This document shows, in pieces, positions 6,518 to 50,013 of a DNA stretch of 64,000 bases; the stretch's first letter is position 1, and each line of letters starts with the position of its first letter. The notes under the pieces were generated by a model that was given only the letters and a program-made list of their open reading frames with translations, was not told the DNA's origin and did no database searches. This stretch comes from Candidatus Micrarchaeaceae archaeon. Lineage in GTDB: Archaea > Micrarchaeota > Micrarchaeia > Micrarchaeales > Micrarchaeaceae. A program made the translations under genes and the position numbers. The stretch is from NCBI GenBank assembly GCA_027310825.1, contig DAIDAC010000003.1:1-64000 (forward strand), in the 5' to 3' direction.

Positions 6518-6530
6518 CTGAGTATTTTTG

Positions 6531-9500
6531 ATGACAGAAGAGGAGAAGAAAGTCCAGAGTAGCCCTGAGCATGGCGACGCTAGCACAGAACAAAATGGAG
6601 GCAGCGCGAGCGATGTTCCGGCTAAAGGAAAACCACGGAGATCAAACAAATATCTGAAACACACGGCAGCAGTAATCGATATCTACAAAGAAACACAAAA
6701 GGCTGCAGAGGCGGTTGCTCTTCTATCGCAAAAGGGCATCAATGTGCCGCGCGAATTTATTCTGCGAATCTGGAGAGAGAACAACCTCCAGGCATCAAGA
6801 GACTACGACATCTCACAAAGGAAAAAGTTGACGCCAGAGCAGGAAGCCATACTGATAAGATGCAACGCTGAAAAAAAGTCTACTGTAGATTCAGCAAAGG
6901 AGGTGGGTGTAAATCCAGCAACTGTGTCTAGATTCTGGGCCAGGAAAGGTTTAAAACCGGCTATTCGGAGAAGGATTTTTACCGACGCAGAAAAGGAAAC
7001 GCTATTGAAAGACCACGCAGCTGGGAAAACTGGCGAAGAAGCGGCAAAATCTTTTAAAGTGACTGTGGCATCAGTCTATGCTTTTTGGAGAAGCAGAGGC
7101 CTAAAGCCAAACATCAGGCGCATGGAATCTCTCACTGCAACGCAGCAGGAAATACTTATCAAATGCCACAAAGAAGGAAAAAGTTTGCGTGACAGTGCAA
7201 AAGAAGCTACGACAAACATGACCAAAGTGGCGGAGTTCTGGGAATCGAAAGGATATCCTCCAACACACGCGAATCCAAGAAGGGTCGTAGCAGAAGAAGA
7301 AAAAACAATGATACTCAAAACATTCGAAAGGCTCGGTAGCATAAGCATGACACAAAAAGTGATGGCGGGATCAGGCTTAGGAAGGGACCTAATACGCGCA
7401 ATCGTAGTAGAAAACGGAGGTAAAATAAAGATCGAAGCTCCTCCGGGCACGCACACCAGCAAAGAGGCCGTAGATGCGGCAGTAGAAAAGTTGAGGCAGT
7501 TCTATACAGAGAAAAAACGGTCACCAACAGCCTATGAAGCAGATAAACTTCTTGGTTTAAAGGGCGTCATAAACGCCGCTAACGACAATCTGAGGGCATT
7601 CGGGATAAAAGGGTACAACGACCTGTTAAAGCTGGCAGGTCTACCTTTGAACCGCAATCTCAACAGATTCCTTAAAAAGGAAGACGTAACAGATGCGCTC
7701 GCTGTCCTAAAGCAGTTTTATGACGATAAGAAGGTGCCTCCATGCGAAGATGACGCAAGAGAATTGGGCCTTAGAACCTTCATCGAACACGCACGCGGAG
7801 GGAAATTCGAGCAATTCGGAGTTGGCAGAAGGTTCAATCAAATATTAGAAGCGGCTGGCATACCAGTATTGTTCAGAAAATGGAGGTTCAAAAGCCAAGA
7901 GGACATAGACAACTGCTTTGCGAAGCTAAAGCAATTCTACGATGAACATAAACGTTCGCCAACAGTAGACGATTTAATCAATATGGATCTAAACGGATTC
8001 TACCAGGCTGCAAGGAACGGTAGTTTAGAGCAGTTCGGGATAGAAAAAGGGATAACCTTTGCGGGTCTTCTTAAACGATTGGGACTGCCGGCTGGCAAGG
8101 AATACAAAATCGGCGAGTGGACACAAGAAGAGGTTGACGCTTCAATAGAAAAGCTAAGGCAATTCAAAAAAGAGAAAGGAAACCCACCAACAATCAAAGA
8201 TGCAAGAGCGCTAAGCCTGCGTAAATTCTTCACTGCAGCCGAAGATGGCGAACTAGAAAAATTCGGAATAAAAAAAGATTCGACGCACAATGATGTTCTA
8301 AAGTTTGCAGGTCTACCGGTAAACGTGGATTACGGTAAGTGGTCTACACAGGAAGCCCTTAACGAAGGTCTCGAAGAATTAAAAGCGTTCTACATCGCAA
8401 ACCAAAGGTCTCCGACGCAGTTAGAGACGCATGGACTTGGCTTAGGCGGACTACTCAGCTCTGTGGCAGTTGGGGGGCTAGCGCAATTTGGAATTAGCTG
8501 TTATAACGACCTGCTGAAGGTGGCAGATCTTCCAATAAACAAAGAAGGGAAAAAGTGGACGACAAAAGAGGGCTTGGATGAGGGCCTAAGCAAAATAAGC
8601 GACTTCTACAAAACGCGGGGAAGATCACCTACCGGTGCAGAAGCCACGGCCGAATTGGGCCTCGGTGGGCTTATTAGTTCTGCAGCCCAAGGAACCCTCA
8701 AGCAATTCAACATCTGCAACTACAATGACCTGCTGAAAGCCGCAGGCGCGCCGTTAAACAGACGCAGAAAAGCAAAGAGTAAGGTGACTGCAGACAGATT
8801 TGTAGAATTAGTAAAAGCGGGCATTCCTGTTGCAGAGGCTGCAAAAGAAGCCGCATACGTGCAAGAAACCTCCCTCGCTCCATTCGGAGATGTCGTTGCT
8901 GATGCTTCTGCCGCCGAGCCGGCAAGCAGCAGGATTTCGAGAAAACGCGAAAACCTTTTCTGGCACAAAAGCGAGAATGTCGATGCTGCGCTGACAAGAC
9001 TGAAGAAATTCTTTGAAGACAACGGGCGTTCGCCGACAGTCGGTGATGCGAAGGCAATAGGGCTTGGAGGCCTTGCATCTTCAGCAAGGAACGGAAGGCT
9101 TATTCCGTTCGGGATAAAATCATGGAACGACATTCTTTCAAAGGCGGGCCTTCCATTGAACAGTGAACCGAACAAAATAATAACACAGGAAGAATTGGAC
9201 ACGACAATAAAAACGATCAAGGAATTCCACGCAAAGAACGGCAGGGCGCCAATGACTAAAGAAGCAATATCAATCGGACTTGGCGAGATGATCTCATCGG
9301 CATACAAAGGCGGTCTCAAGGGTTTCGGGATAGCGTCCTGGAACGACCTCCTTGCAAAAGCCGGCGTGCCTGCCAATGTAATAAGGGGCAGATGGGCGAG
9401 CGGGAACGAAGAAGAGGCAAAAAAAGATGCCGATGCAGCAATAACCGCAATCAAGGAATTCCACGCAAAGAACGGCAGGGCACCGACGACAAAGGAGGCG

Positions 9501-12500
9501 CGGTCCCCGCTTGGAATCGGCTGGTTTGCAGACGCAATAATAAGGGGACAGCTCAGGCCGCTGGGCATCAAATCCTGGAACGATGCGCTGAAAAAGGCAG
9601 GCGCTCCGCCAAACTACGAACCGGGAAAATGGCATGATGAAGCACGCGTGAAAGATGCTCTTGCAAAAATAAAGGAACTTTATGAAAAGACAGGAAGGGC
9701 ACCTGAGAGCGGCGAGGTAGAAGAAAAACTCGACATAAAAGGCTTTGCTTCTGCAGCTTACACTGGCGTGCTGGAACCATTTGGCATCAATAGCTGGAAC
9801 GGCGTCCTCAAGAAGCTTGGGATACAGCCGATCAGAGATGAGGGCAGATGGGAAAAGAAGGAGGAAGTCGACAGCGCCCTCGAGAAGCTGAAAAATTTCT
9901 ATACCGAAAAGCAAAAATCTCCAACCATAAAAGATGCGCGCGAAATTGGCCTGGCCAGTTTTGCCGCAGCCGCTTCGAAAAGAGGGGCACTAACACAATT
10001 CGGCATAGACGGCTGGAATGATGTCCTAAGTAAAATAGGTGCGCCTCCTAACATAGAGCACAAAAAATGGCAAGACGAGGCAAATGTAAAGGCGGCTTTA
10101 GCAAAGATAACTGGATTCTACAAACAGAACGGCAGACCGCCTACCCGCGAAGAGGCGGATATAGATTCTGATTTTAAGGGATTCGGTGCTATCGCAGCAA
10201 GCGGCTCATTAAAGCAGTTCGGCATCGAAACCTGGAACGACGCACTTAAGTTGGCCGGAGTGCCGCTCAACCGCGACAAGGAAAAATGGTCTAAAAAAGA
10301 GGAAGTAGACAAAGGAGTAGCATGGGTAAAACAGTTCTACGCCGAGAACAAAAGGTCGCCTACGCAAGATGAGGCAATGGCTACAGGACATGCCGACTTC
10401 TTAGCTGCGGTTAAACAGGGCAAGCTCACTAGAGTTGGAATAAACGCCACAACATGGAATGAACTGCTTTCCTACCTGGAGCTGCCAACTAACATAGAAA
10501 TGAAAAGAGAGTGGAACAGCCAAAAGGCCGTAGATGACATGCTCGAAACGCTAAGGCAATTCTATAGCACCAACAAGCGCGCACCGACACGTCGCGAAAT
10601 AATAGATGACCTGGGCTTCAACAGTTTTGTCCAAGCTGCGCACACAGGCGCGCTTGCGCCGTATGGAGTGCCAAAAGGCAGCAACACCAACGACATAATC
10701 CGCATATCCAGAATCCCGATAAACAGGGAGTCTGCGATATGGACTAACAAAGAAGCGGTAGACAGAGGCCTGGAGACTCTGCGAAAGTTTTACCAAGAGC
10801 ACAAACGCTCGCCGAAGACCTCGGATTTGAGCGATATCGGCCTATATGGATTCTTCCAGTCGGCCGCGCTCGGCAGGCTAAAAGCGTTCGGCATAGGCAA
10901 CTCGTACAATGACCTTCTTAAAGCGGCAGGCCTTCCGACGAATCGAGAATACGGCAAATACGATACCAAAGAGAAAGTCGAGGAAGGCCTTGAAGTTTTG
11001 AGGCAGTTCCACAGAGAGCACGGCAGAGCTCCAACATTCGACGAGGCAACTGCCGAGCCGGGGCTTTCCAATTTACAAGGCGCTGCCAAGCAGGGCTCGC
11101 TGGGGCAATTCGGGATAGGCAAAAAATACAACGATCTCATAAGGGCTGCCGGCATTCCTGTAAACCTCGATTACGGAAAATGGAAGGAGAGAAAAGGGCT
11201 TGACAGGGGGCTTGCAGTGCTGAAAGGGCTATGCACCACGCTTCAAAGAACACCCAAGAAGGAAGAGGCGCTTGAAGCAGGCTTGCAAGGATTTTTCACA
11301 GCAGCATCGAGAGGCGAGTACAAAGAGTTTAACCTTCCGGAAGGAACAACCTTTAACGATCTATTAACGTATGCAAACATTCCTGTCGGCAGGGAAAGCG
11401 GCAAAAGCTCTGAAACTGTTGGGCAGAATGGAGAGCAGATGACTGTATCCCTGGCTCCATTCGGAGATGTTGTTGCTAACGATCTTGCACAATTGGAGGA
11501 CGCTGCAGCAAAAACATTTGCTGGCGAACTGATCTTGAATAAAAACAAGAATCCGGACTGGACAAAGAAAGAGAATGTCGAAATAGCTCTGGAAAGGATC
11601 AGGAAGTTTGACCGGGCAAACGGCAGGCCGCCGACATATATAGAACCACAATCACTCATCTCAGCTCCTTCAAAACGAGCTACAACAAACGGCAATCACC
11701 CTGTTCCGAAAGAAGCGACATGGGTGAACATGCGTTTCTACAAAAGAGACGAGGCATTAAAGCCAACGCAGACTCCGCTCATAATACACAATGCAGAGGT
11801 TCTAGCCGAAACTGCTGTTGCCGCACCTCGGCAAGAAACGGACAGCAGACAGAAGCCGGACTACACTGCGGAAGTGCCTGCAATCCAAAAGCTCAGAAAA
11901 GGGGAGCCGATCACCAAAAAAGAATTGGAGGAGGCAAAGGCATCGAGGCCTGTAATCGCTTCAATGATACTGTTCGAGTCTATGGCCGACAAACTCAAAG
12001 AGCCGATTCTCGACATTGCATCAGGACCAACAAGCCCTGTTGCGCATGCTGCAAAGCTAGTTGGAAAGAGCGTAACATGCATCGACAGGAAGATTTACTA
12101 CTTGGGCATGTTAAGAGAGGAAATCGGAATTAACGAGAACGCCAGCGCAAATGGATATGTGCATGGAAACGCGTTCAGGCTTCCGTTCGCAGATGGATCC
12201 TTCAACACGGTCACATCGAGCTACTTCCTCGACATCTACAGAAACAAAGAGCGAATAGTCCAAGCTCTGTCCGAGATGAGGCGTGTTGCAGCTCCGGACG
12301 GAAAGGTGATCATTGAAGTGACCGAGGCATTCGGCAAATACCTTCCATCGTTGAAGCCAATACTGGAGCAGATCGGCCTTGATGCAACTGTAACGGTCAA
12401 TAGACAGCCATTCGCTGACGACTCAGAGGCGAAGTCTTACGTGCTAGAGTGCGTGCCAGTCCAGCCTGTTGCAATACGGGCAACTGTAGAAAAGATTCCT

Positions 12501-12914
12501 GGAACCGACGTCGCTGTGGTCGAATATCAAGGAAGACCAAAGATTCACATAGTGCCAGAAGAAAAGGAGCACGTTGTGATAGTCAATGTGACAGAAGCGC
12601 TCGACAATCTACCAGAAGCAGCAAGGCATTTCGTAATGCAAACAATACTCGAACCGGTCTCGTGGCGTTTCAACATGAGCGACAGATATGTAGAACATTT
12701 CAAGCAGTACAACAGTATCAGCATAGAAGAGGCATTCGGCCGCCTTGGAGTCAAAGCTGACCTCATAAGGACACAGGTTGTCGGAGACAACTACTGCAAC
12801 GAGCTGGTGCTGAGGATGACGAAGAAGGCGCACGATGAGCTTTACAACACATTCCACGACCACGTGATCAATGCAAGCGCGAGGCACATAGCAAGGAACA
12901 AGAAAAAGGCATGA
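6531..12914 (+). CDS. Giant repeat-array protein with HTH-like units and a SAM-methyltransferase-like domain
   Basis: About 2127 residues. Residues 1-40 are disordered and charged. Residues 42-300 hold about five HTH-like units (for example VDSAKEVGVNPATVSRFW and EAAKSFKVTVASVYAFW). Then come 17 complete ~70-residue repeats (about residues 306-745 and 808-1623) and one half repeat near 1676-1705. Their consensus is a helix, G-R-S-P-T-x-x-E-A, L-G-L, AA-x-x-G-x-L, F-G-I-x-S-W-N-D-L-L, AG-x-P-x-N. This resembles the homing-endonuclease-associated (HNH) repeat. From about residue 1820 a class I methyltransferase-like domain shows motif I (LDIASGPTS), an acidic strand end (CIDRK) and FRLPFADGSFNTV. 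No DPPY or PC motif is present, so an ordinary N6-adenine or C5-cytosine DNA methylase is unlikely. The last ~190 residues are unrecognised. I infer an array that reads nucleic acid, fused to a modifying or SAM-sensing domain. Confidence 0.85.
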   Translation: MTEEEKKVQSSPEHGDASTEQNGGSASDVPAKGKPRRSNKYLKHTAAVIDIYKETQKAAEAVALLSQKGINVPREFILRIWRENNLQASRDYDISQRKKLTPEQEAILIRCNAEKKSTVDSAKEVGVNPATVSRFWARKGLKPAIRRRIFTDAEKETLLKDHAAGKTGEEAAKSFKVTVASVYAFWRSRGLKPNIRRMESLTATQQEILIKCHKEGKSLRDSAKEATTNMTKVAEFWESKGYPPTHANPRRVVAEEEKTMILKTFERLGSISMTQKVMAGSGLGRDLIRAIVVENGGKIKIEAPPGTHTSKEAVDAAVEKLRQFYTEKKRSPTAYEADKLLGLKGVINAANDNLRAFGIKGYNDLLKLAGLPLNRNLNRFLKKEDVTDALAVLKQFYDDKKVPPCEDDARELGLRTFIEHARGGKFEQFGVGRRFNQILEAAGIPVLFRKWRFKSQEDIDNCFAKLKQFYDEHKRSPTVDDLINMDLNGFYQAARNGSLEQFGIEKGITFAGLLKRLGLPAGKEYKIGEWTQEEVDASIEKLRQFKKEKGNPPTIKDARALSLRKFFTAAEDGELEKFGIKKDSTHNDVLKFAGLPVNVDYGKWSTQEALNEGLEELKAFYIANQRSPTQLETHGLGLGGLLSSVAVGGLAQFGISCYNDLLKVADLPINKEGKKWTTKEGLDEGLSKISDFYKTRGRSPTGAEATAELGLGGLISSAAQGTLKQFNICNYNDLLKAAGAPLNRRRKAKSKVTADRFVELVKAGIPVAEAAKEAAYVQETSLAPFGDVVADASAAEPASSRISRKRENLFWHKSENVDAALTRLKKFFEDNGRSPTVGDAKAIGLGGLASSARNGRLIPFGIKSWNDILSKAGLPLNSEPNKIITQEELDTTIKTIKEFHAKNGRAPMTKEAISIGLGEMISSAYKGGLKGFGIASWNDLLAKAGVPANVIRGRWASGNEEEAKKDADAAITAIKEFHAKNGRAPTTKEARSPLGIGWFADAIIRGQLRPLGIKSWNDALKKAGAPPNYEPGKWHDEARVKDALAKIKELYEKTGRAPESGEVEEKLDIKGFASAAYTGVLEPFGINSWNGVLKKLGIQPIRDEGRWEKKEEVDSALEKLKNFYTEKQKSPTIKDAREIGLASFAAAASKRGALTQFGIDGWNDVLSKIGAPPNIEHKKWQDEANVKAALAKITGFYKQNGRPPTREEADIDSDFKGFGAIAASGSLKQFGIETWNDALKLAGVPLNRDKEKWSKKEEVDKGVAWVKQFYAENKRSPTQDEAMATGHADFLAAVKQGKLTRVGINATTWNELLSYLELPTNIEMKREWNSQKAVDDMLETLRQFYSTNKRAPTRREIIDDLGFNSFVQAAHTGALAPYGVPKGSNTNDIIRISRIPINRESAIWTNKEAVDRGLETLRKFYQEHKRSPKTSDLSDIGLYGFFQSAALGRLKAFGIGNSYNDLLKAAGLPTNREYGKYDTKEKVEEGLEVLRQFHREHGRAPTFDEATAEPGLSNLQGAAKQGSLGQFGIGKKYNDLIRAAGIPVNLDYGKWKERKGLDRGLAVLKGLCTTLQRTPKKEEALEAGLQGFFTAASRGEYKEFNLPEGTTFNDLLTYANIPVGRESGKSSETVGQNGEQMTVSLAPFGDVVANDLAQLEDAAAKTFAGELILNKNKNPDWTKKENVEIALERIRKFDRANGRPPTYIEPQSLISAPSKRATTNGNHPVPKEATWVNMRFYKRDEALKPTQTPLIIHNAEVLAETAVAAPRQETDSRQKPDYTAEVPAIQKLRKGEPITKKELEEAKASRPVIASMILFESMADKLKEPILDIASGPTSPVAHAAKLVGKSVTCIDRKIYYLGMLREEIGINENASANGYVHGNAFRLPFADGSFNTVTSSYFLDIYRNKERIVQALSEMRRVAAPDGKVIIEVTEAFGKYLPSLKPILEQIGLDATVTVNRQPFADDSEAKSYVLECVPVQPVAIRATVEKIPGTDVAVVEYQGRPKIHIVPEEKEHVVIVNVTEALDNLPEAARHFVMQTILEPVSWRFNMSDRYVEHFKQYNSISIEEAFGRLGVKADLIRTQVVGDNYCNELVLRMTKKAHDELYNTFHDHVINASARHIARNKKKA
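7450..8765 (+). repeat. Protein repeat block 1 (six ~70-residue units)
   Basis: Six tandem units inside the giant gene, each ending in a block like FGIKGYNDLLKLAGLPLN. Units 2 to 4 are the most divergent, with insertions before the final helix (unit 3 has FGIEKGITFAGLLKRLG). The block ends in an Ala-rich linker containing SLAPFGDVVAD. DNA identity between units is low, so this is an old array at protein level rather than a DNA satellite. Confidence 0.85.
8955..11400 (+). repeat. Protein repeat block 2 (eleven ~70-residue units)
   Basis: Eleven tandem units after the first linker, again ending with a linker containing SLAPFGDVVAN. Units 8 and 9 of the whole array share a nearly unchanged DNA stretch covering IKEFHAKNGRAP (about 9220-9250 and 9450-9482), which points to a recent unit duplication. 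Units 7 to 12 keep the strongest SWND motif. Unit 13 has TTWNELLSYLELP and unit 14 GSNTNDIIRISRIP in place of it. Confidence 0.85.
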
Positions 12915-31516: not shown

Positions 31517-32671
31517 ATGCCACAAAAGTCAAGTCCTGAAAAACAGGCCCAAAAGGGGGATGTTCTTGCAAAGGAAGCCGAAGGAATGGTGCGGTATTTC
31601 ATAGACAGGAACGGAAGGATTCCGAATGAGAACGAGGCTCTGTCCCAGCTCCACCTCGGCGCTTTCATAGAGAGGCAGAAGCGCGAGGGATCAAGCTATG
31701 GGGCATTCATAAGATCCCTACACACCGGCAGGCTTCTTAGAGGCAGGAGCCTTGAAGAGGTCGAGCGAATGCTTGGCGAGATCAAGACAACAATTGAAAA
31801 ATTCCAGAAAGAGCAGTTCAGGCTCCCCACATCATCGGAAATGACAAAATTGCATAGCGATACAATGCAGAAGGTTGCCAAAGGCGCGCTATGGTCCATG
31901 GGGATATTCGAATACAATGATATCATAGGCTACTTCGGCATTAGGCCGCAGAGCAGAGAGGACTTCAGGCTTGCACGCCTTGCCACGCATGCAGTCGAAT
32001 CAGTGAAACAGCTCCGCGAGCGCGTTCCAAATGCATTTGTAGACGAGCGCAAGGTGCGGGAGCTAGGCAACGGTTCATTTTTGTATGAACTGAGGCACAA
32101 AAGCTACTCACATCTAAACATTAACGGCTTCGACGATTTCCTAAAACTGATCGGCATTGAGCAGCCGGTAGCGAAGCCAGTTGCGCTGAAGAGGAAGCAT
32201 TATAGGATAGGCGACAAGCCCAACCCTAGCGCCATCTACCAGCCCCACGGAGCCGCAGCTGCCTATCTGAACTTCTGCAAAGAGCGCGGGCGCATTCCTA
32301 CGATGGAAGAGATGAAGGAGCAGCTGAACATGGGCAGCATAATCCAACGCGCCGATTCAGGCCAGCTTGCATCTAAGGGCATAATGAACTTCCAAGGATT
32401 CCTGTCTATGCTCCGCGCAAGGACAGAGCTTGCTCTTGAGGAATTCTGGACTACTGAAGCAGGAATGGCAGAGGCACAGAGGAGAGTGCGCGCCCACGCA
32501 TCGGCGCAGAAGAAGGTTGTCACCACGCAGCAGATGGTGGACGAGCTGCACCTGCTGCCATTCATTCGCAAGAACCCAGTCGAAAGATTGGGCTTCACAA
32601 CATGGAGCGCGTTCGCGCGCAAGCTTTCAGAGGATGAACTACAGCTAAAACCGCAGGATGATGGAGCGTGA
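31517..32671 (+). CDS. Second repeat-family protein (about five divergent units)
   Basis: 384 residues of the same repeat family as the giant protein, but more diverged. Recognisable pieces are DRNGRIPNENEA, LHLGAFIERQ, FRLPTSSEMTKL, SMGIFEYNDIIGYFGI, NINGFDDFLKLIGI, ERGRIPTMEEM and LGFTTWSAFARKL. These give about five helix-GRxPT-FG-xx-N/D-LL modules. There is no methyltransferase or HTH block. The charged first 20 residues are probably disordered. Its promoter carries the CTAAATATC motif. Presumably nucleic-acid-binding if the family is. Confidence 0.75.
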   Translation: MPQKSSPEKQAQKGDVLAKEAEGMVRYFIDRNGRIPNENEALSQLHLGAFIERQKREGSSYGAFIRSLHTGRLLRGRSLEEVERMLGEIKTTIEKFQKEQFRLPTSSEMTKLHSDTMQKVAKGALWSMGIFEYNDIIGYFGIRPQSREDFRLARLATHAVESVKQLRERVPNAFVDERKVRELGNGSFLYELRHKSYSHLNINGFDDFLKLIGIEQPVAKPVALKRKHYRIGDKPNPSAIYQPHGAAAAYLNFCKERGRIPTMEEMKEQLNMGSIIQRADSGQLASKGIMNFQGFLSMLRARTELALEEFWTTEAGMAEAQRRVRAHASAQKKVVTTQQMVDELHLLPFIRKNPVERLGFTTWSAFARKLSEDELQLKPQDDGA

Positions 32672-32759
32672 TACGACGCCTGCCAAGTGCCGGACAATCT
32701 ATTTATATTATGTTTGGTGAACAATAGTGGCGCAATGCAGTAACATTGTGTGATCAAAA

Positions 32760-33575
32760 ATGGCGAAAGAAAACCTCTATCTGGTAAAGATGGGAGGCAG
32801 CAGCATAACCGACACAACAAAAGAAAAGGTTGCGAAAAGAGAAGTTATAGCTCGTCTGCTAACCGAGATCAACAACGCGAAGAAGAACAGCAACGCAAAG
32901 ATAATAATAGGCCACGGAGCCGGATGCTTCGGCCACAACCAGGCAAAGAGATACAACGTGAGCAGCGGGCTAAAGGACAACGAGAGCGTGAAGGGAGCAA
33001 CTCTGACAAGAGAAGCTGTCCAGGAACTAAACAAGATAGTAGTCGACGCCGGCATAGAGCTCGGGCTTCCTGTGCTTGGATTCTCGCCGTCTGGATTTGC
33101 GGTCTGCAAGAGCAAGAAGATAGTAGACGGAATGACATCTCCGCTTTCTCATTCGATCGGCAACGGATTCCTTCCGATTGTGCACGGAGACGTGATGACT
33201 GACCTTGACCAGGGAGCAAGCATAGCGTCAACAGAAGAGGTATTTCGATTTGTATCATCGCAGATGAAGCCTGACAAAATCGTGTTGGGCACAGACACTG
33301 ACGGGGTTTTCGACAGCAATCCGCAGACAAACCCGAACGCAAAGCTTATCGAATTCATAGATGGAAAGAACATAGCCTATGCAATGGAATGCGCAGGCGG
33401 CGCAACAAAGACCGACGTCACAGGCGGAATGCATTCCAAGCTGGCGATCCTTTACGACATGGTGAAGTCGACAGGAGCTACCGGCTACATTGTCAACTGC
33501 AGCAAGCCTGGAGTGGTAGAAGCTGTCCTTTCAGGAAGAGAGAAGGACGTTAAGTGCACAGTGGTAAAGCCATAA
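32760..33575 (+). CDS. ipk: Isopentenyl phosphate kinase-like amino-acid-kinase-family protein
   Basis: 271 residues. The amino-acid-kinase fold shows the N-terminal lysine in LVKMGGSSITD, then IIIGHGAGCFGH (the family usually has GGGSFGH, with the substrate His retained), DVMTDLDQGA and LGTDTDGVF. The TKTDVTGGMHSKL segment is the ADP-binding loop. It phosphorylates isopentenyl phosphate to IPP in the archaeal mevalonate route, fitting the GGGP synthase at 59195. The VKGATLTREAVQELN segment also fits the family. Confidence 0.87.
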   Translation: MAKENLYLVKMGGSSITDTTKEKVAKREVIARLLTEINNAKKNSNAKIIIGHGAGCFGHNQAKRYNVSSGLKDNESVKGATLTREAVQELNKIVVDAGIELGLPVLGFSPSGFAVCKSKKIVDGMTSPLSHSIGNGFLPIVHGDVMTDLDQGASIASTEEVFRFVSSQMKPDKIVLGTDTDGVFDSNPQTNPNAKLIEFIDGKNIAYAMECAGGATKTDVTGGMHSKLAILYDMVKSTGATGYIVNCSKPGVVEAVLSGREKDVKCTVVKP

Positions 33576-33635
33576 CTTTTTCTGACTACTATAAGTTATA
33601 AATATTTCCAAGGCTGAAAGGAACGAAGTGAAATA

Positions 33636-34439
33636 ATGGCGACACCGAGGAACGGCAACAGAATCACAGCCGTGGCTTCTTCTATTCCGACCGCTAATCT
33701 GAAAAGAGACGAGCGGCCGAGAGAGCTGGTGAGGAGAGAGTCGGTAGCAACAGCTCCGGTTCAGAAAAGAGAGGAAAGGCAGGCAAATTATGTCATCACG
33801 TGCGAGCCGCGCGAAGCGATCGAGCAGGCTGTAAAAAGGATCCAATTGTTCTACAAAGCATACGAAAGGTCGCCGACCGCCAGGGAAGCGATAACAGAGC
33901 TCAGGATCGGCAGCATTATCACTTCTGCGAACGCTGGCAGGTTCAAGGATCTAGGGGTAGAGAAGTGGAACGATATTCTGACGTTGGCTGGAGTTCCTGT
34001 AAACCTGGCAAGGAACCAATGGACAACGGAGAAGGCCGTCAAGGAGGTAACTACAGCAATCAAGGATTTTTACTTTAAGAATGGAAGGGCGCCGAGCAGC
34101 AAAGACGACGCCATAGAACTTGGCATAATCAGCATTATCGGCCCGATGTACCGTGGTGCTCTGAGGAAGTTTGGAATAATGTCCTGGAACGACCTCCTTA
34201 GAAAAGCTGGCGTGCCCCTGAACAAGCCACACACACGGATTACAAAGGAGAGGGTAGACGATGCGATCAAGAAGATGCAGAGGTTCAAATCAGAAAATGG
34301 CAGAATGCCGTCGACAAACGAGTTCCGCTTCAACCTTGGCCTCAATGGAATCTTCACGGCGATTTGCAGAGGCTATCTGAAGCAGTTCGGAATTGCATCG
34401 TGGAAAGACCTAGTCACAGTCGCAGAGAACGCAATTTAA
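33636..34439 (+). CDS. Third repeat-family protein (three canonical units)
   Basis: 267 residues. After about 45 flexible Arg-rich residues there are three clean units of the giant protein's repeat. Landmarks are ERSPTAREA and VEKWNDILTLAGVPVN, GRAPSSKDDA and IMSWNDLLRKAGVPLN, then GRMPSTNEF and IASWKDLVTVAENA. It has no catalytic domain. This is the simplest member, and the best template for defining the repeat. Promoter: TTATAAATATTT at 33594-33605, about 36 bases before the ATG. Confidence 0.8.
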   Translation: MATPRNGNRITAVASSIPTANLKRDERPRELVRRESVATAPVQKREERQANYVITCEPREAIEQAVKRIQLFYKAYERSPTAREAITELRIGSIITSANAGRFKDLGVEKWNDILTLAGVPVNLARNQWTTEKAVKEVTTAIKDFYFKNGRAPSSKDDAIELGIISIIGPMYRGALRKFGIMSWNDLLRKAGVPLNKPHTRITKERVDDAIKKMQRFKSENGRMPSTNEFRFNLGLNGIFTAICRGYLKQFGIASWKDLVTVAENAI

Positions 34440-45616: not shown

Positions 45617-46792
45617 ATGGCTCCTATCGAGTTTCCTTTTGAGGATTTACCAGAGGGATTAGTAGAGGAAATGTTGCAAAGATCAAAGCAAATAAGTACT
45701 GCGATGACTACTCAATTTGGTAAAATTTATGAACAAAAAGATGCTATAATTAAAACACTGAATGAGGCGCATATGTTGCATAATATAACAGATTTACCTA
45801 CGCCTGCAATATATCCAACTTCATCAGGTGTTGATGGAGCATATGCTGTGGAAAGGTTGGTTTCTACTGATTTTGCTTGTGTGGCTGGTGTTGCAGTGGA
45901 AGGCCTAACACCTCCAGGCCCAGAAAAAAGATATTGGCCAAAACCACGCTTTTTTTCACACATTGATTTGGTCTCTCACAATGAAGCAACCTCACAAATA
46001 CTTAGGGGTATGTCAGTAAACATAGAACTACAGTTAGCAGTTCATGCACCGCACGACGTAGTCTTTTTAGACGGGTCTTTACTAACATATGGTATATTCC
46101 TAAATAATGCAACGGTAGCTTTTAACGATGCCCCTGACAACTTAAAAGATATATTCGTCAATGGTAAAGCTGCAGAAAATGAAGATAAAATAAGATTCCC
46201 TTCATTTTTAGATTGTTTAAATGCATACAAAACCATCTTGGCTTCCGTGAGGACAGACAAGATATTTGTTGCTCTGCCTAAATATACAACAAAGAATGAA
46301 GTTTGCCAAAAATTAGGAATGCAAAATTATGAGGATAGAAGTCTGCTTAATTTTGTTCTAAAGGCCAACGAATACATTGGTCCATTAGAACTAACAAGCG
46401 AAGTACATATTAAGGTACCATCTGGGATATCGAATTCAGAGCAGATCAAATCACTAATAACTGAGATTACGACGATCCTTTTCCCAAAAATTAGAATATT
46501 TTATTATAGGCCTTCCGCATTCATGCCAGTAATAAGGTTAGAAGTGCCTGAATCTGTTGCAAATAACAAGGGCCGATTATCTATACTGTTTAAGGCTTTA
46601 CAAATTCAATGTGTGAGCCCTTCAATAATGGAACCGTATCCGTTGTACCTTGCAGATAGAATGGTAAAGCATTTATCAACCGCACTTCCAGCAATAAGAC
46701 GATCAGCAACTCAAGAATTGGCTGAGACATGGAAAGGAGACATTGGAGATGTATCTCTCGCAACTCATGGTTATAGAACAGAATGGGGATGA
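45617..46792 (+). CDS. nurA: NurA-domain nuclease
   Basis: 391 residues. NurA-fold signatures: first catalytic Asp in SSGVDGAYAVERL (about residue 75) and the second acidic motif FLDGSLLTYG (about residue 152). A C-terminal part has IRLEVPESVANN. NurA is a 5'-3' nuclease that works with the HerA ring translocase in DNA end resection. The downstream gene is HerA, overlapping by four bases. A TATA box (TTTATATAA at 45586-45594) lies about 27 bases before the ATG. Unlike the usual archaeal locus, no mre11 or rad50 is adjacent. Confidence 0.85.
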   Translation: MAPIEFPFEDLPEGLVEEMLQRSKQISTAMTTQFGKIYEQKDAIIKTLNEAHMLHNITDLPTPAIYPTSSGVDGAYAVERLVSTDFACVAGVAVEGLTPPGPEKRYWPKPRFFSHIDLVSHNEATSQILRGMSVNIELQLAVHAPHDVVFLDGSLLTYGIFLNNATVAFNDAPDNLKDIFVNGKAAENEDKIRFPSFLDCLNAYKTILASVRTDKIFVALPKYTTKNEVCQKLGMQNYEDRSLLNFVLKANEYIGPLELTSEVHIKVPSGISNSEQIKSLITEITTILFPKIRIFYYRPSAFMPVIRLEVPESVANNKGRLSILFKALQIQCVSPSIMEPYPLYLADRMVKHLSTALPAIRRSATQELAETWKGDIGDVSLATHGYRTEWG

Positions 46793-48540
46793 AAATGACC
46801 GACGAAATTAAAAAAACTGTTGATAACGGTGAAAGGATAGGTGTTATTGGTTCACCTTCATCAACAGCTAATATAACTGTTGATGTATTAGAAACCGCAA
46901 TGAACAAAAAATTGGTTGGTAATCTATGTATATTTGGTTATCAACAGGAAAATGCTGACAATTTTGCTCTGGGCCAAATTGTGGAAGTAAGCATGAGAAA
47001 TGTTTGGGCCGAAGACCCTACAATGAGGGGCCTTATAAGGCAGAGAGGTAGTGTACCTCCAATTACAGAGAAACAGGATGTACATGTGGCTGATATGATG
47101 ACAAGTGCCGTTTTCTCTGTAAACAACGATAAAATAGGTCAAAGTATGCTTGGAACTGTTCCATCAACTGGCACCAATGTAAAGCTAATTGATGAAACCA
47201 TAATGGATAGGTTATTTTTAGATTATAAAAATAAATTATTTTATTTAGGGAAGGTTTATGGTACAAATATCAGAATGCCGATGTGGCTGAATAATTTTGG
47301 TTCCGTTGAAACCGGTGGTGCAGGAGAGGCCTATCATATAGGAATATTTGGTAAGACTGGTTCAGGTAAATCAAGGCTCGCTGAAATGATGATGCTGGGA
47401 TACGCAAAACACAAAGAGATGTCTATCCTAATATTAGACCCTCAATCACAATTTTCCTTAGACTTAGGAGGAGAAGATTCTAAAATAAAGACGCTATTAG
47501 CCAAGATTGGTAAACCCGTGAAGATTTTCCATATCAAAAATGTAGTTCTTGATAGTCCAACCCTCTTTAGAGATATTCTTGCCCGCTCTAATTTCTGGGA
47601 AGGATTGGTTAGAAGTGAAGAATACAGAATAAAAGCTGGAGACATAATGTGGGAGTATTTGAGACCCTTAATGGTAAGTAAGCAAGTTGATTTATTCCAT
47701 ATGTACAAGAAAGAACAATTTAAAATTATCTGGGATAAAATCTTCAGCAACGAAACCTACTTAGGACGTGTATATAGCAAAAGTTATGCGAAGGAGTACA
47801 AAGAGGCTCTTGATGCTGAAGGGGCTTTTGAGTCATACTATGAACGCTGGGTTCGTGTAGCTAAGTTATTTACGTGGGAAGAAAGAGGTGTCGGTAATAC
47901 TGCAATAACAGTAAATAAACTGATTAATGAGGAATTTTTGGACACAACGGGGCCAATGCCAATCGTGGTGGTTGATTTATCTAAGGAAGGAGCGCCTGAA
48001 GGAGTACTGTGGGATGAAAGAATACAAGCATTAATAATAAACAGGGTTCTTGAAAAACTAACACAAGCCGCAGAGGATTATTACAAGAGTAAAAAACTTC
48101 TAAATAGTCTTGTTATAATTGATGAAGCACATAGGCTTGCTCAAAGAGAAAGAACGGAAGAAGCAGAATTTGAATTAGTAAAACAGACACTCATAGATGC
48201 AGTTAGAACTACAAGGAAATATGGTTTGGGTTGGATGTTTATAAGTCAGACTTTATCAAGTTTATCAAGGGATATAATAGATCAACTTAGAGTACAAATA
48301 TTTGGTTTTGGTTTGGCGTGGGGTTTGGAAAGGAATGCATTGCGTGAGTTAATAGGCGGCCAAGAAGAAGTAATGGGTTTATACCAATCATTCAGAGATC
48401 CACAGACCTTCCTAAATGATAAACCAAAATGGCAATTTATGGCGAAAGGGCCAATTTCTCCATTATCTTTTGCAGAAGCACCCCTGTTCTTTGATGCATT
48501 AGATCTATTTGGAGATTTCTTAACTGTAAACTTCAAATAA
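46789..48540 (+). CDS. herA: HerA-type hexameric DNA translocase
   Basis: About 583 residues from ATG 46789 (ATGA overlap with nurA; ATG 46783 is possible). An N-terminal HAS beta-barrel (to about 150) is followed by a FtsK/HerA ATPase. Walker A is GIFGKTGSGKSRLAE, Walker B is LVIIDEAHRLAQ, and an arginine-finger region lies near DAVRTTRKYGLGW. It pumps DNA through a hexamer and drives NurA. The whole gene is AT-rich compared with the host, suggesting transfer with the element. Confidence 0.9.
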   Translation: MKMTDEIKKTVDNGERIGVIGSPSSTANITVDVLETAMNKKLVGNLCIFGYQQENADNFALGQIVEVSMRNVWAEDPTMRGLIRQRGSVPPITEKQDVHVADMMTSAVFSVNNDKIGQSMLGTVPSTGTNVKLIDETIMDRLFLDYKNKLFYLGKVYGTNIRMPMWLNNFGSVETGGAGEAYHIGIFGKTGSGKSRLAEMMMLGYAKHKEMSILILDPQSQFSLDLGGEDSKIKTLLAKIGKPVKIFHIKNVVLDSPTLFRDILARSNFWEGLVRSEEYRIKAGDIMWEYLRPLMVSKQVDLFHMYKKEQFKIIWDKIFSNETYLGRVYSKSYAKEYKEALDAEGAFESYYERWVRVAKLFTWEERGVGNTAITVNKLINEEFLDTTGPMPIVVVDLSKEGAPEGVLWDERIQALIINRVLEKLTQAAEDYYKSKKLLNSLVIIDEAHRLAQRERTEEAEFELVKQTLIDAVRTTRKYGLGWMFISQTLSSLSRDIIDQLRVQIFGFGLAWGLERNALRELIGGQEEVMGLYQSFRDPQTFLNDKPKWQFMAKGPISPLSFAEAPLFFDALDLFGDFLTVNFK

Positions 48541-48542
48541 TT

Positions 48543-49661
48543 TTAGTTCAATAAAGAATATTGTTCTTTTTTGAAGGAAAGATAGCTCTGATCTCTTTCT
48601 ACCCTTTTAATTATCCACCTATTTATGATATATTCAGAAATATCATCAACGCCATTCTTTTTGAATAACCTAAGTCTTTTATCTTGACCCAAAATATATT
48701 CTTTCCAATTATTCCCAAATGGTATAATAAAAATTTCTCTCTTAATGCCGTGATACAATAAATCTTGTGAAAGACCTAAATCTTTTAGTACACCCTTGAC
48801 AGCGACCCTCCTATTTCTAATTCCAGTACCCCATTCTTTTCGTTTACCACCCACTTCAAGCGCTGTAGCAGAATCATATAATTTTTCATACATTCCATTC
48901 ATGAACTGGAATTCTCCCGAGCCTCCAGTCCAACCAGCATGTATATACTCAGTTCCTCCAGGTATTTTTATTCTATCATACATAGAACTTCTTCCGTATG
49001 CAGATGTTGTAGTTATTGCCGCAATATTTTTCTTGAATATTCTGCCACTTATTATTGCCCTACTACCAAAATATTTATTTCTGAAATCATTGTAGATCCT
49101 TTTTGATCCAACCAAAGATGCAACTAACTTTCCACCTAAAACGGAATTATATGGAGGTACAGCCCCTATTACAAAACCATCCATTAGGCATTTTAAATTC
49201 GTTGCCTTTGTTTGATTATCCCAACCAATGCAAGAATCCCTATCTTTTAAAGCATAAACAGGATCTGCAAGGCCGATTATACCTATTAACTTGTCGTTGT
49301 TTTTATCCATAACCAAATATCTCAAACGTCTCCCATATCCTGCTGAAATCGGTATTGACCAATGAAGTTTAACCCACCTGAATAGTGTGGACTGTTCTTC
49401 TGACTTTACAGTAATTAATTTTGGAGCTATTTCTGAAGGATTAATATCAGATCCATCTGCTATGAAATCGTATAATAAGGATTTTTCATTTTTTTCGATT
49501 AGTTTTTTATTCTTCAAGATAATATGATTACGAGCCATACTATTAAGTTTTCTAAGCCTCTCTTTTGTAGGATTTCTGAAATTCAGATGACCATTTTTAT
49601 GTTGGAAACCCTGCCTTTTTAACGTATCAAGTATCTCTTTTTTTGTAATCTTATTCAACAT
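48543..49661 (-). CDS. DruA-like (DUF4338) protein
   Basis: 372 residues. The central part matches the DUF4338 family, as I recall its signature: RRLRYLVMDKNNDKLIGIIG, LKDRDSCIGWDNQ, a hydrophobic MDGFVIGAVPPYN, then TTTSAYGRSSMYDRI. DUF4338 is DruA of the Druantia anti-phage systems, and also occurs on mobile elements. The N-terminal 110 residues are helical and may bind DNA. It converges on herA with a two-base gap. No DruE helicase is present, so this is not a standard Druantia locus. The exact biochemical activity of the family is not known to me. Confidence 0.7.
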   Translation of the reverse strand: MLNKITKKEILDTLKRQGFQHKNGHLNFRNPTKERLRKLNSMARNHIILKNKKLIEKNEKSLLYDFIADGSDINPSEIAPKLITVKSEEQSTLFRWVKLHWSIPISAGYGRRLRYLVMDKNNDKLIGIIGLADPVYALKDRDSCIGWDNQTKATNLKCLMDGFVIGAVPPYNSVLGGKLVASLVGSKRIYNDFRNKYFGSRAIISGRIFKKNIAAITTTSAYGRSSMYDRIKIPGGTEYIHAGWTGGSGEFQFMNGMYEKLYDSATALEVGGKRKEWGTGIRNRRVAVKGVLKDLGLSQDLLYHGIKREIFIIPFGNNWKEYILGQDKRLRLFKKNGVDDISEYIINRWIIKRVERDQSYLSFKKEQYSLLN

Positions 49662-49729
49662 CTAAATCAATAATGCTTAATATCAAGACTTTTTAGGCCT
49701 TTCTCTATATGGCATTACTTTTGCTTCTC

Positions 49730-49897
49730 TTACTCGACGAACACCCTGATTAGCACATCCTTCCCGATGAATTCAGTCAACTTGGGATTTCTTAGGCTTA
49801 CACTCCCATACTCATACTTCTTGATCGCACCGCCTACTAACTTCTTCTTGTCGAAGGACTTGCTAACCCGAACCCTGAAAGTTCCTATTTGTCGCAT
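49730..49897 (-). CDS. 55-residue protein divergent from the transposase
   Basis: Short frame with a basic start (VRVSKSFDKKKL) and a beta-rich end (YEYGSVSLRNPKL, then EFIGKDVLIRVFVE). The -FIGKDVLI- ending resembles small transposon-encoded DUF2080/AbrB-like proteins that accompany some archaeal IS transposases. A TATA-like ATATATCTTTTC is on its minus strand upstream, back to back with the transposase promoter. It could regulate the transposase. Confidence 0.5.
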   Translation of the reverse strand: MRQIGTFRVRVSKSFDKKKLVGGAIKKYEYGSVSLRNPKLTEFIGKDVLIRVFVE

Positions 49898-50013
49898 AAA
49901 CCCACGAGTATATTCTACTTAGAAAAGATATATAAACCCCTCGGTATTCTAATTAGAATATAGTAAGGTATATATATTTAATCGTCTATATTCTATATAG
50001 AAGAGGTGTCTAA

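Follow-up and report, generated by a model that had tools for sequence, protein, structure and literature searches.

The proteins P0001 and P0002, encoded close together in a contig of Candidatus Micrarchaeaceae archaeon, are in our reading stand-alone arrays of PF18780-type repeats, built of four-helix, helix-turn-helix-like units, that bind double-stranded DNA, probably with sequence selectivity, and act by binding alone; we consider this fairly probable. DNA recognition by the arrays is supported indirectly by the fusion partners of related units, the predicted fold, the basic charge of the proteins and the placement of the variation between units. The helix that would read the bases and the cellular role of P0001 and P0002 are what we infer.

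The window, that is, the whole stretch of DNA analysed, comprises positions 1–64,000 of contig DAIDAC010000003.1, and the archaeal coordinates below refer to it. The two array genes and the features between them are as follows.

31517..32671, + strand: P0001, 384 residues; stand-alone array of four diverged units and a weak fifth; predicted pI 9.5
32760..33575, + strand: gene of the amino-acid-kinase family between P0001 and P0002; context only
33592..33606, + strand: A+T-rich, TATA-like stretch agttataaatatttc upstream of P0002; found by eye only
33636..34439, + strand: P0002, 267 residues; low-confidence basic N-terminal tail (about residues 1–55), then three canonical units; predicted pI 10.1

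Both array reading frames are open at these coordinates. The product of the gene between them matches the Pfam family AA_kinase (E 1.6e-33), which fits its naming as isopentenyl phosphate kinase in the preliminary description of this DNA. The gene lies 88 bases from P0001 and 60 bases from P0002, near enough that both could share a transcript with it. Each of the two is also preceded, as judged by eye, by a TATA-like sequence and may have a promoter of its own. The kinase gene was matched in 33 of the 60 relatives searched, and its neighbourhood in the seven relatives examined has essentially nothing else in common with the window. Further downstream, positions 46001–50000 of the window are A+T-rich, with a G+C content of 0.34–0.38 against about 0.48 around them.

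The genome holds two longer members of the family. One is in the window.

6528..12914, + strand: P0003, 2128 residues; N-terminal part HTH-like; 17 complete units plus a partial one; UbiE-like methyltransferase domain (residues 1817–1932)
7467..11405, + strand: main array of P0003, 17 full units (residues 314–1626)

The partial unit of P0003 (11580–11646, residues 1684–1706) comes after the main array and ends past the motif R-P-P-T, just before the methyltransferase part. The other member, on contig C11, has 1219 residues and 16 units, and shows no other Pfam domain above cut-off save profiles that overlap the repeat. The HTH-like N-terminal part and the UbiE-like methyltransferase are found in P0003 alone among the four paralogues. 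Pfam gives no methyltransferase and no HTH domain above cut-off for P0001 and P0002, as had been proposed for these two short proteins. Apart from the repeat, no domain is recognisable in either, and the HNH catalytic domain (PF01844) has no Pfam match in P0001, P0002, P0003 or the C11 protein.

The units were delimited with a profile built from the 17 full units of P0003 only and run against P0001 and P0002. In P0002 it finds three units with high significance.

33819..34022, + strand: P0002 unit 1 (residues 62–129); 62.7 bits, i-E 1.7e-18
34038..34238, + strand: P0002 unit 2 (residues 135–201); 63.0 bits, i-E 1.4e-18
34254..34427, + strand: P0002 unit 3 (residues 207–264); 50.9 bits, i-E 8e-15

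In P0001 the same profile matched four stretches, two of them strongly. With a second profile, from which the units of P0001 itself had been left out, the whole protein scores 116 bits, a value reached by none of 500 shuffles of P0001, the maximum of which was 5.4. The scores, shuffles and predicted helices of the individual units are listed here.

31559..31732, + strand: P0001 unit 1 (residues 15–72); 24.5 bits, 0 of 500 shuffles; helices 7–32, 38–43, 48–56 and 61–67
31766..31960, + strand: P0001 unit 2 (residues 84–148); 33.8 bits, 0 of 500 shuffles; helices 79–100, 106–112, 114–121 and 133–139
31964..32170, + strand: P0001 unit 3 (residues 150–218); 25.1 bits, 0 of 500 shuffles; helices 147–169, 177–182, 186–193 and 205–211
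32234..32428, + strand: P0001 unit 4, the best preserved (residues 240–304); 50.6 bits, 0 of 500 shuffles; helices 243–257, 263–268, 273–280 and 292–298
32429..32668, + strand: P0001 possible unit 5, strongly diverged (residues 305–384); 5.1 bits, reached by 2 of 500 shuffles; modelled helices 314–331, 337–342, 347–352 and 363–375; aligned by eye

The count of three canonical units in P0002 given in the preliminary description is thus borne out by a profile derived from P0003 (i-E 8e-15 to 1.4e-18). Its "about five diverged units" in P0001 stands for four, all above every shuffle, while the fifth is marginal.

The repeat corresponds to the Pfam family PF18780 (HNH_repeat, model length 54), for which the curated cut-off is a whole-protein score of 26 bits. 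P0002 (31.5 bits), P0003 (107.8 bits) and the C11 protein (33.2 bits) score above it. P0001, at 13.2 bits, lies below it and by sequence is joined to the family only via the paralogue profile. A profile comparison of the archaeal units with those of array proteins from Bacillus plasmids gave a probability of 93% and, for a single pair, an E value of 3.4e-7.

The arrays differ greatly in size (17 units and a fragment in P0003, 16 in the C11 protein, four to five in P0001 and three in P0002) and their units have diverged far from one another. The median identity of units within an array is 38% in P0003, 34% in P0002, 28% in the C11 protein and 17% in P0001. Each unit of P0003 is nearest to another P0003 unit, with a nucleotide identity of at most 60%; the units of P0002 are nearest to P0003 in two of three cases and those of P0001 to the C11 protein in three of four. 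From this pattern of low identity within arrays, the four arrays appear to be old and to have grown largely separately, and P0001 and P0002 are, on their sequences, not a recent pair. A recent tandem origin of one from the other was considered and rejected, the median identity between their units being 22%. The earlier statements about the family therefore hold with one qualification: three members do lie inside 28 kb (P0003, P0001 and P0002 span 6528 to 34439), and a further member exists in the genome, contrary to what would have refuted the preliminary description, whereas the "two short paralogues", both of which match the paralogue profile, are not close to each other. The suggested expansion in this lineage with varied array length also agrees with the data, since the genome, of 975 kb and 91.6% complete, has about 41 units in four array proteins, while the proteins of the carriers examined among its relatives have between one and about seven units each.

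AlphaFold models of both proteins consist of repeated four-helix units, five in P0001 (pLDDT 83, pTM 0.50) and three in P0002 (pLDDT 82, pTM 0.47). The input alignments were paralogous slices in which the repeats were already in register, and the arrangement of the units relative to one another in the models is not to be trusted because the pTM values are low. No solved structure of the unit and no experiment on it was found: a search of the PDB by sequence gave nothing below E 0.3, and a Foldseek search of the PDB with the P0002 model gave no match below E 1. When this model was realigned to solved structures, DsrC ranked best (Z 5.8), followed by TetR-type HTH proteins (Z up to 5.2), including DNA-bound EilR, and LexA (Z up to 3.4), all below the level that the tool regards as informative; the tool itself warns that the DsrC and TetR alignments may reflect merely a common helical arrangement. 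Among viral predicted structures, Foldseek matched the P0002 model to phage proteins of unknown function and to giant-virus SF2 helicases, with E values of 0.008–0.1. The reading of the models that we favour is of a helix-turn-helix-like unit of four helices.

Related units are found joined to a variety of DNA-acting enzymes. In haloarchaeal plasmid proteins, six to seven PF18780 units precede a C-terminal HNH nuclease. Tyrosine recombinases with two N-terminal units (PF00589 Phage_integrase, E 2.3e-17) occur in the phylum of a Heimdallarchaeota locus, which was the one locus found by scanning genome contigs; five such recombinases of about 450 residues were seen, with the two HNH_repeat units identified by Pfam in L110 and L111 and by eye in L112, L117 and L118. 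The Heimdallarchaeota protein itself (JAAFKI010000132.1, L106:5467–7182) carries six units, and its C-terminal region resembles a PD-(D/E)XK nuclease, on a by-eye motif and a weak match to RmuC (E 0.0012). An SF2 helicase is joined to related units in G228 and, by eye, in L114, and in a protein of 434 residues (L096:3362–4666) one HNH_repeat-like unit is joined to repeated HTH_38 domains. The array partner in G055 is an AAA-like protein, its AAA matches being below cut-off. DNA binding by P0001 and P0002 is thus suggested by the association of their repeat with DNA-acting partners, together with the resemblance of fold.

The case for sequence selectivity comes from the placement of the variation. 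Across the 40 units of the archaeal genome compared, the polar columns of the predicted helix 2–3 region (residues 81–105 of P0002) have a mean entropy of 3.13 bits against 2.58 bits for the other polar columns (permutation p 0.008); for single arrays the difference has p 0.004 in P0003 and is not significant in the C11 protein (p 0.15). The region was picked after the entropy table had been seen and the columns depend on one another, which tilts the p values towards the hypothesis, and the variation in this genome extends over many surface positions instead of being limited to a few. The arrays of Bacillus plasmids have near-identical PF18780 units, differ in length between related plasmids and have a site-specific integrase and an HTH gene upstream.

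L152:7737-10211: Bacillus plasmid array, 824 residues, 14 units
L155:3749-6367: Bacillus plasmid array, 872 residues, 12 units
L156:4019-6979: Bacillus plasmid array, 986 residues, 13 units

The units were counted with a single regular expression, and among 25 distinct ones the 43-residue core is near-constant, more than 2 bits being found only at positions 15, 18, 24, 25, 26 and 28. By analogy, positions 24–28 would correspond to the beginning of helix 3, which would place four variable positions where the recognition helix is expected. The pattern is stronger than that of the archaeal genome; it does not map position by position onto the archaeal unit, which has extra residues at the expected recognition helix.

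The repeat is sporadic among relatives of the archaeon. Of 301 genomes of the phylum, 8 matched the first profile of the unit and 13 a broader one, these 13 being the genome of the window and 12 relatives; within the genus only one of 13 other genomes (G004) carries it. The 301 genomes yielded no orthologue of either P0001 or P0002. Scans of viral contigs confirmed no close relatives. At the limits set, phages gave no match to P0002, P0003 or the C11 protein, and plasmids none to P0002; the plasmid and phage relatives were found with P0003 and the Bacillus array protein as queries. Array genes in relatives adjoin a Hef-like helicase and a GlyRS-like gene (G055), and EF1A with a small ribosomal-type ORF (G177), as in the source genome; loci from other genera (L091, L095 and L092, compared with the window and L017) likewise have array genes near the Hef-like helicase, EF1A and GlyRS-like genes. 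The coincidences have p values of about 0.02–0.06 in a crude simulation of random gene order, which assumed 1000 genes of which 50% are shared and was applied to coincidences picked after seeing them, and the sharing of neighbours could be by chance. We therefore do not claim orthologous array loci across genera. Orthology gains no support from the closest sequences either, the array of G177 being nearer to the C11 protein than to P0003.

On the proposed mechanism, several units in a row would contact successive stretches of DNA, the number of units setting the footprint and the residues of helices 2 and 3 the sequence preference. Neither P0001 nor P0002 carries a nuclease, recombinase or methyltransferase domain, so their effect would come from occupancy, in the role of transcriptional regulators or architectural proteins of the chromosome. 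Each array may, plausibly, have a target of its own, as the preliminary description expected. A more far-reaching proposal, which we offer tentatively and would not ourselves presume to be correct, is that PF18780-type units form a modular DNA-reading system found in archaea, in phages and on Bacillus plasmids: variable residues of helix 3 in each unit would read a short stretch of bases, the length of the array would set that of the target, and the stand-alone versions expanded in this archaeon would serve as regulators.

The arrays might instead bind DNA or RNA without selectivity, packaging the chromosome or forming a nucleic-acid scaffold, in which case unit number would determine affinity and not target length. 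The basic character of both proteins is as expected for this, as are the spread of variation over many exposed positions in the archaeal genome, the result for the C11 protein and the lack of orthologues found to be under selection for a fixed target. Such binding is nevertheless unlikely, since related units sit on enzymes that require targeting (HNH nucleases and tyrosine recombinases) and it does not explain the fixed framework and few variable helix positions of the Bacillus arrays. Could the genes be functionless, degenerate remnants of mobile elements, homing endonucleases or integrases that have lost their catalytic domain? The occurrence in 13 of 301 genomes, the related arrays with catalytic domains on plasmids and the strong divergence of P0001 would suit such an origin, but the reading frames of all four genes are open and intact over 267 to 2128 codons, the G+C content of the region is that of its surroundings, and framework residues are kept in four separate arrays whose units have a median identity of about 35% or less, unlike in recent decay; we regard it as very improbable. 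Alpha-helical repeats often bind proteins or RNA, and these could too, but a protein-protein or RNA-binding scaffold that merely resembles a DNA-binding fold is the least probable reading, for although the solved structures that rank best are sulfur carriers of the DsrC type, which are not DNA-binding, the units have DNA-acting enzymes as fusion partners in several unrelated contexts.

Selective DNA binding by stand-alone arrays may be set against several known systems. The Pfam repeat itself is already known, and public plasmid records contain array proteins, most of them labelled hypothetical or HNH endonuclease; a modelling paper names PF18780 in a listing, without a function (PMC8078820), and no paper found in the literature searched, which covers few subscription journals, suggests that the family has a recognition function. 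The archaeal unit shares with PF18780 the tandem arrangement and the conserved R-x-P, G and aromatic-N/D-x-L-L positions; it is longer (spacing of about 72 residues in P0003 against 54 in the Pfam model) and is without the HNH domain. The haloarchaeal plasmid HNH endonucleases likewise have tandem units, with the C-terminal nuclease that is absent from P0001 and P0002. Closest in organisation are the arrays of Bacillus subtilis and B. velezensis plasmids (WP_259608181.1 and relatives, annotated as hypothetical), which also stand alone and vary in length, with at least 12 PF18780-type units; there, however, the units are near-identical, and in the source genome the median identity within an array is only 17–38%. 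Giant-virus SF2 helicases with arrays of the helicase associated domain PF03457 (HA) are among the best Foldseek matches of the P0002 model, at a weak E 0.02–0.1. P0003 matches PF03457 weakly (E 0.0046, 17.7 bits, below the curated cut-off of 28.4), the family is not listed for P0001 or P0002, and these two, unlike the viral proteins, have no helicase. The likeness to TAL effectors and TALE-like proteins is in idea only: tandem units, variable length and variation at defined positions, the last strong in the Bacillus arrays. The archaeal units are of about 60–72 residues against about 33–35, no sequence match was seen, and the variation extends beyond two positions; a published screen for TALE-like repeats was restricted to repeats of 30–43 residues, shorter than the archaeal units (PMC5472282).

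The unusual features are how many stand-alone arrays a small archaeal genome (<1 Mb) contains, and the longer and more diverged unit. If DNA is read unit by unit, the family would be another modular DNA-binding system, with HTH-like units rather than TALE or zinc-finger ones, and the near-identical arrays of the Bacillus plasmids would render the recognition code directly testable. It would also account for the unusually high density of repeat genes in this archaeon, whose genome is smaller than 1 Mb. A hypothetical protein akin to the Bacillus array is also encoded by Geobacillus virus E3 (L158:3034–4572), with PemK-like genes and a putative immunity gene three genes away.
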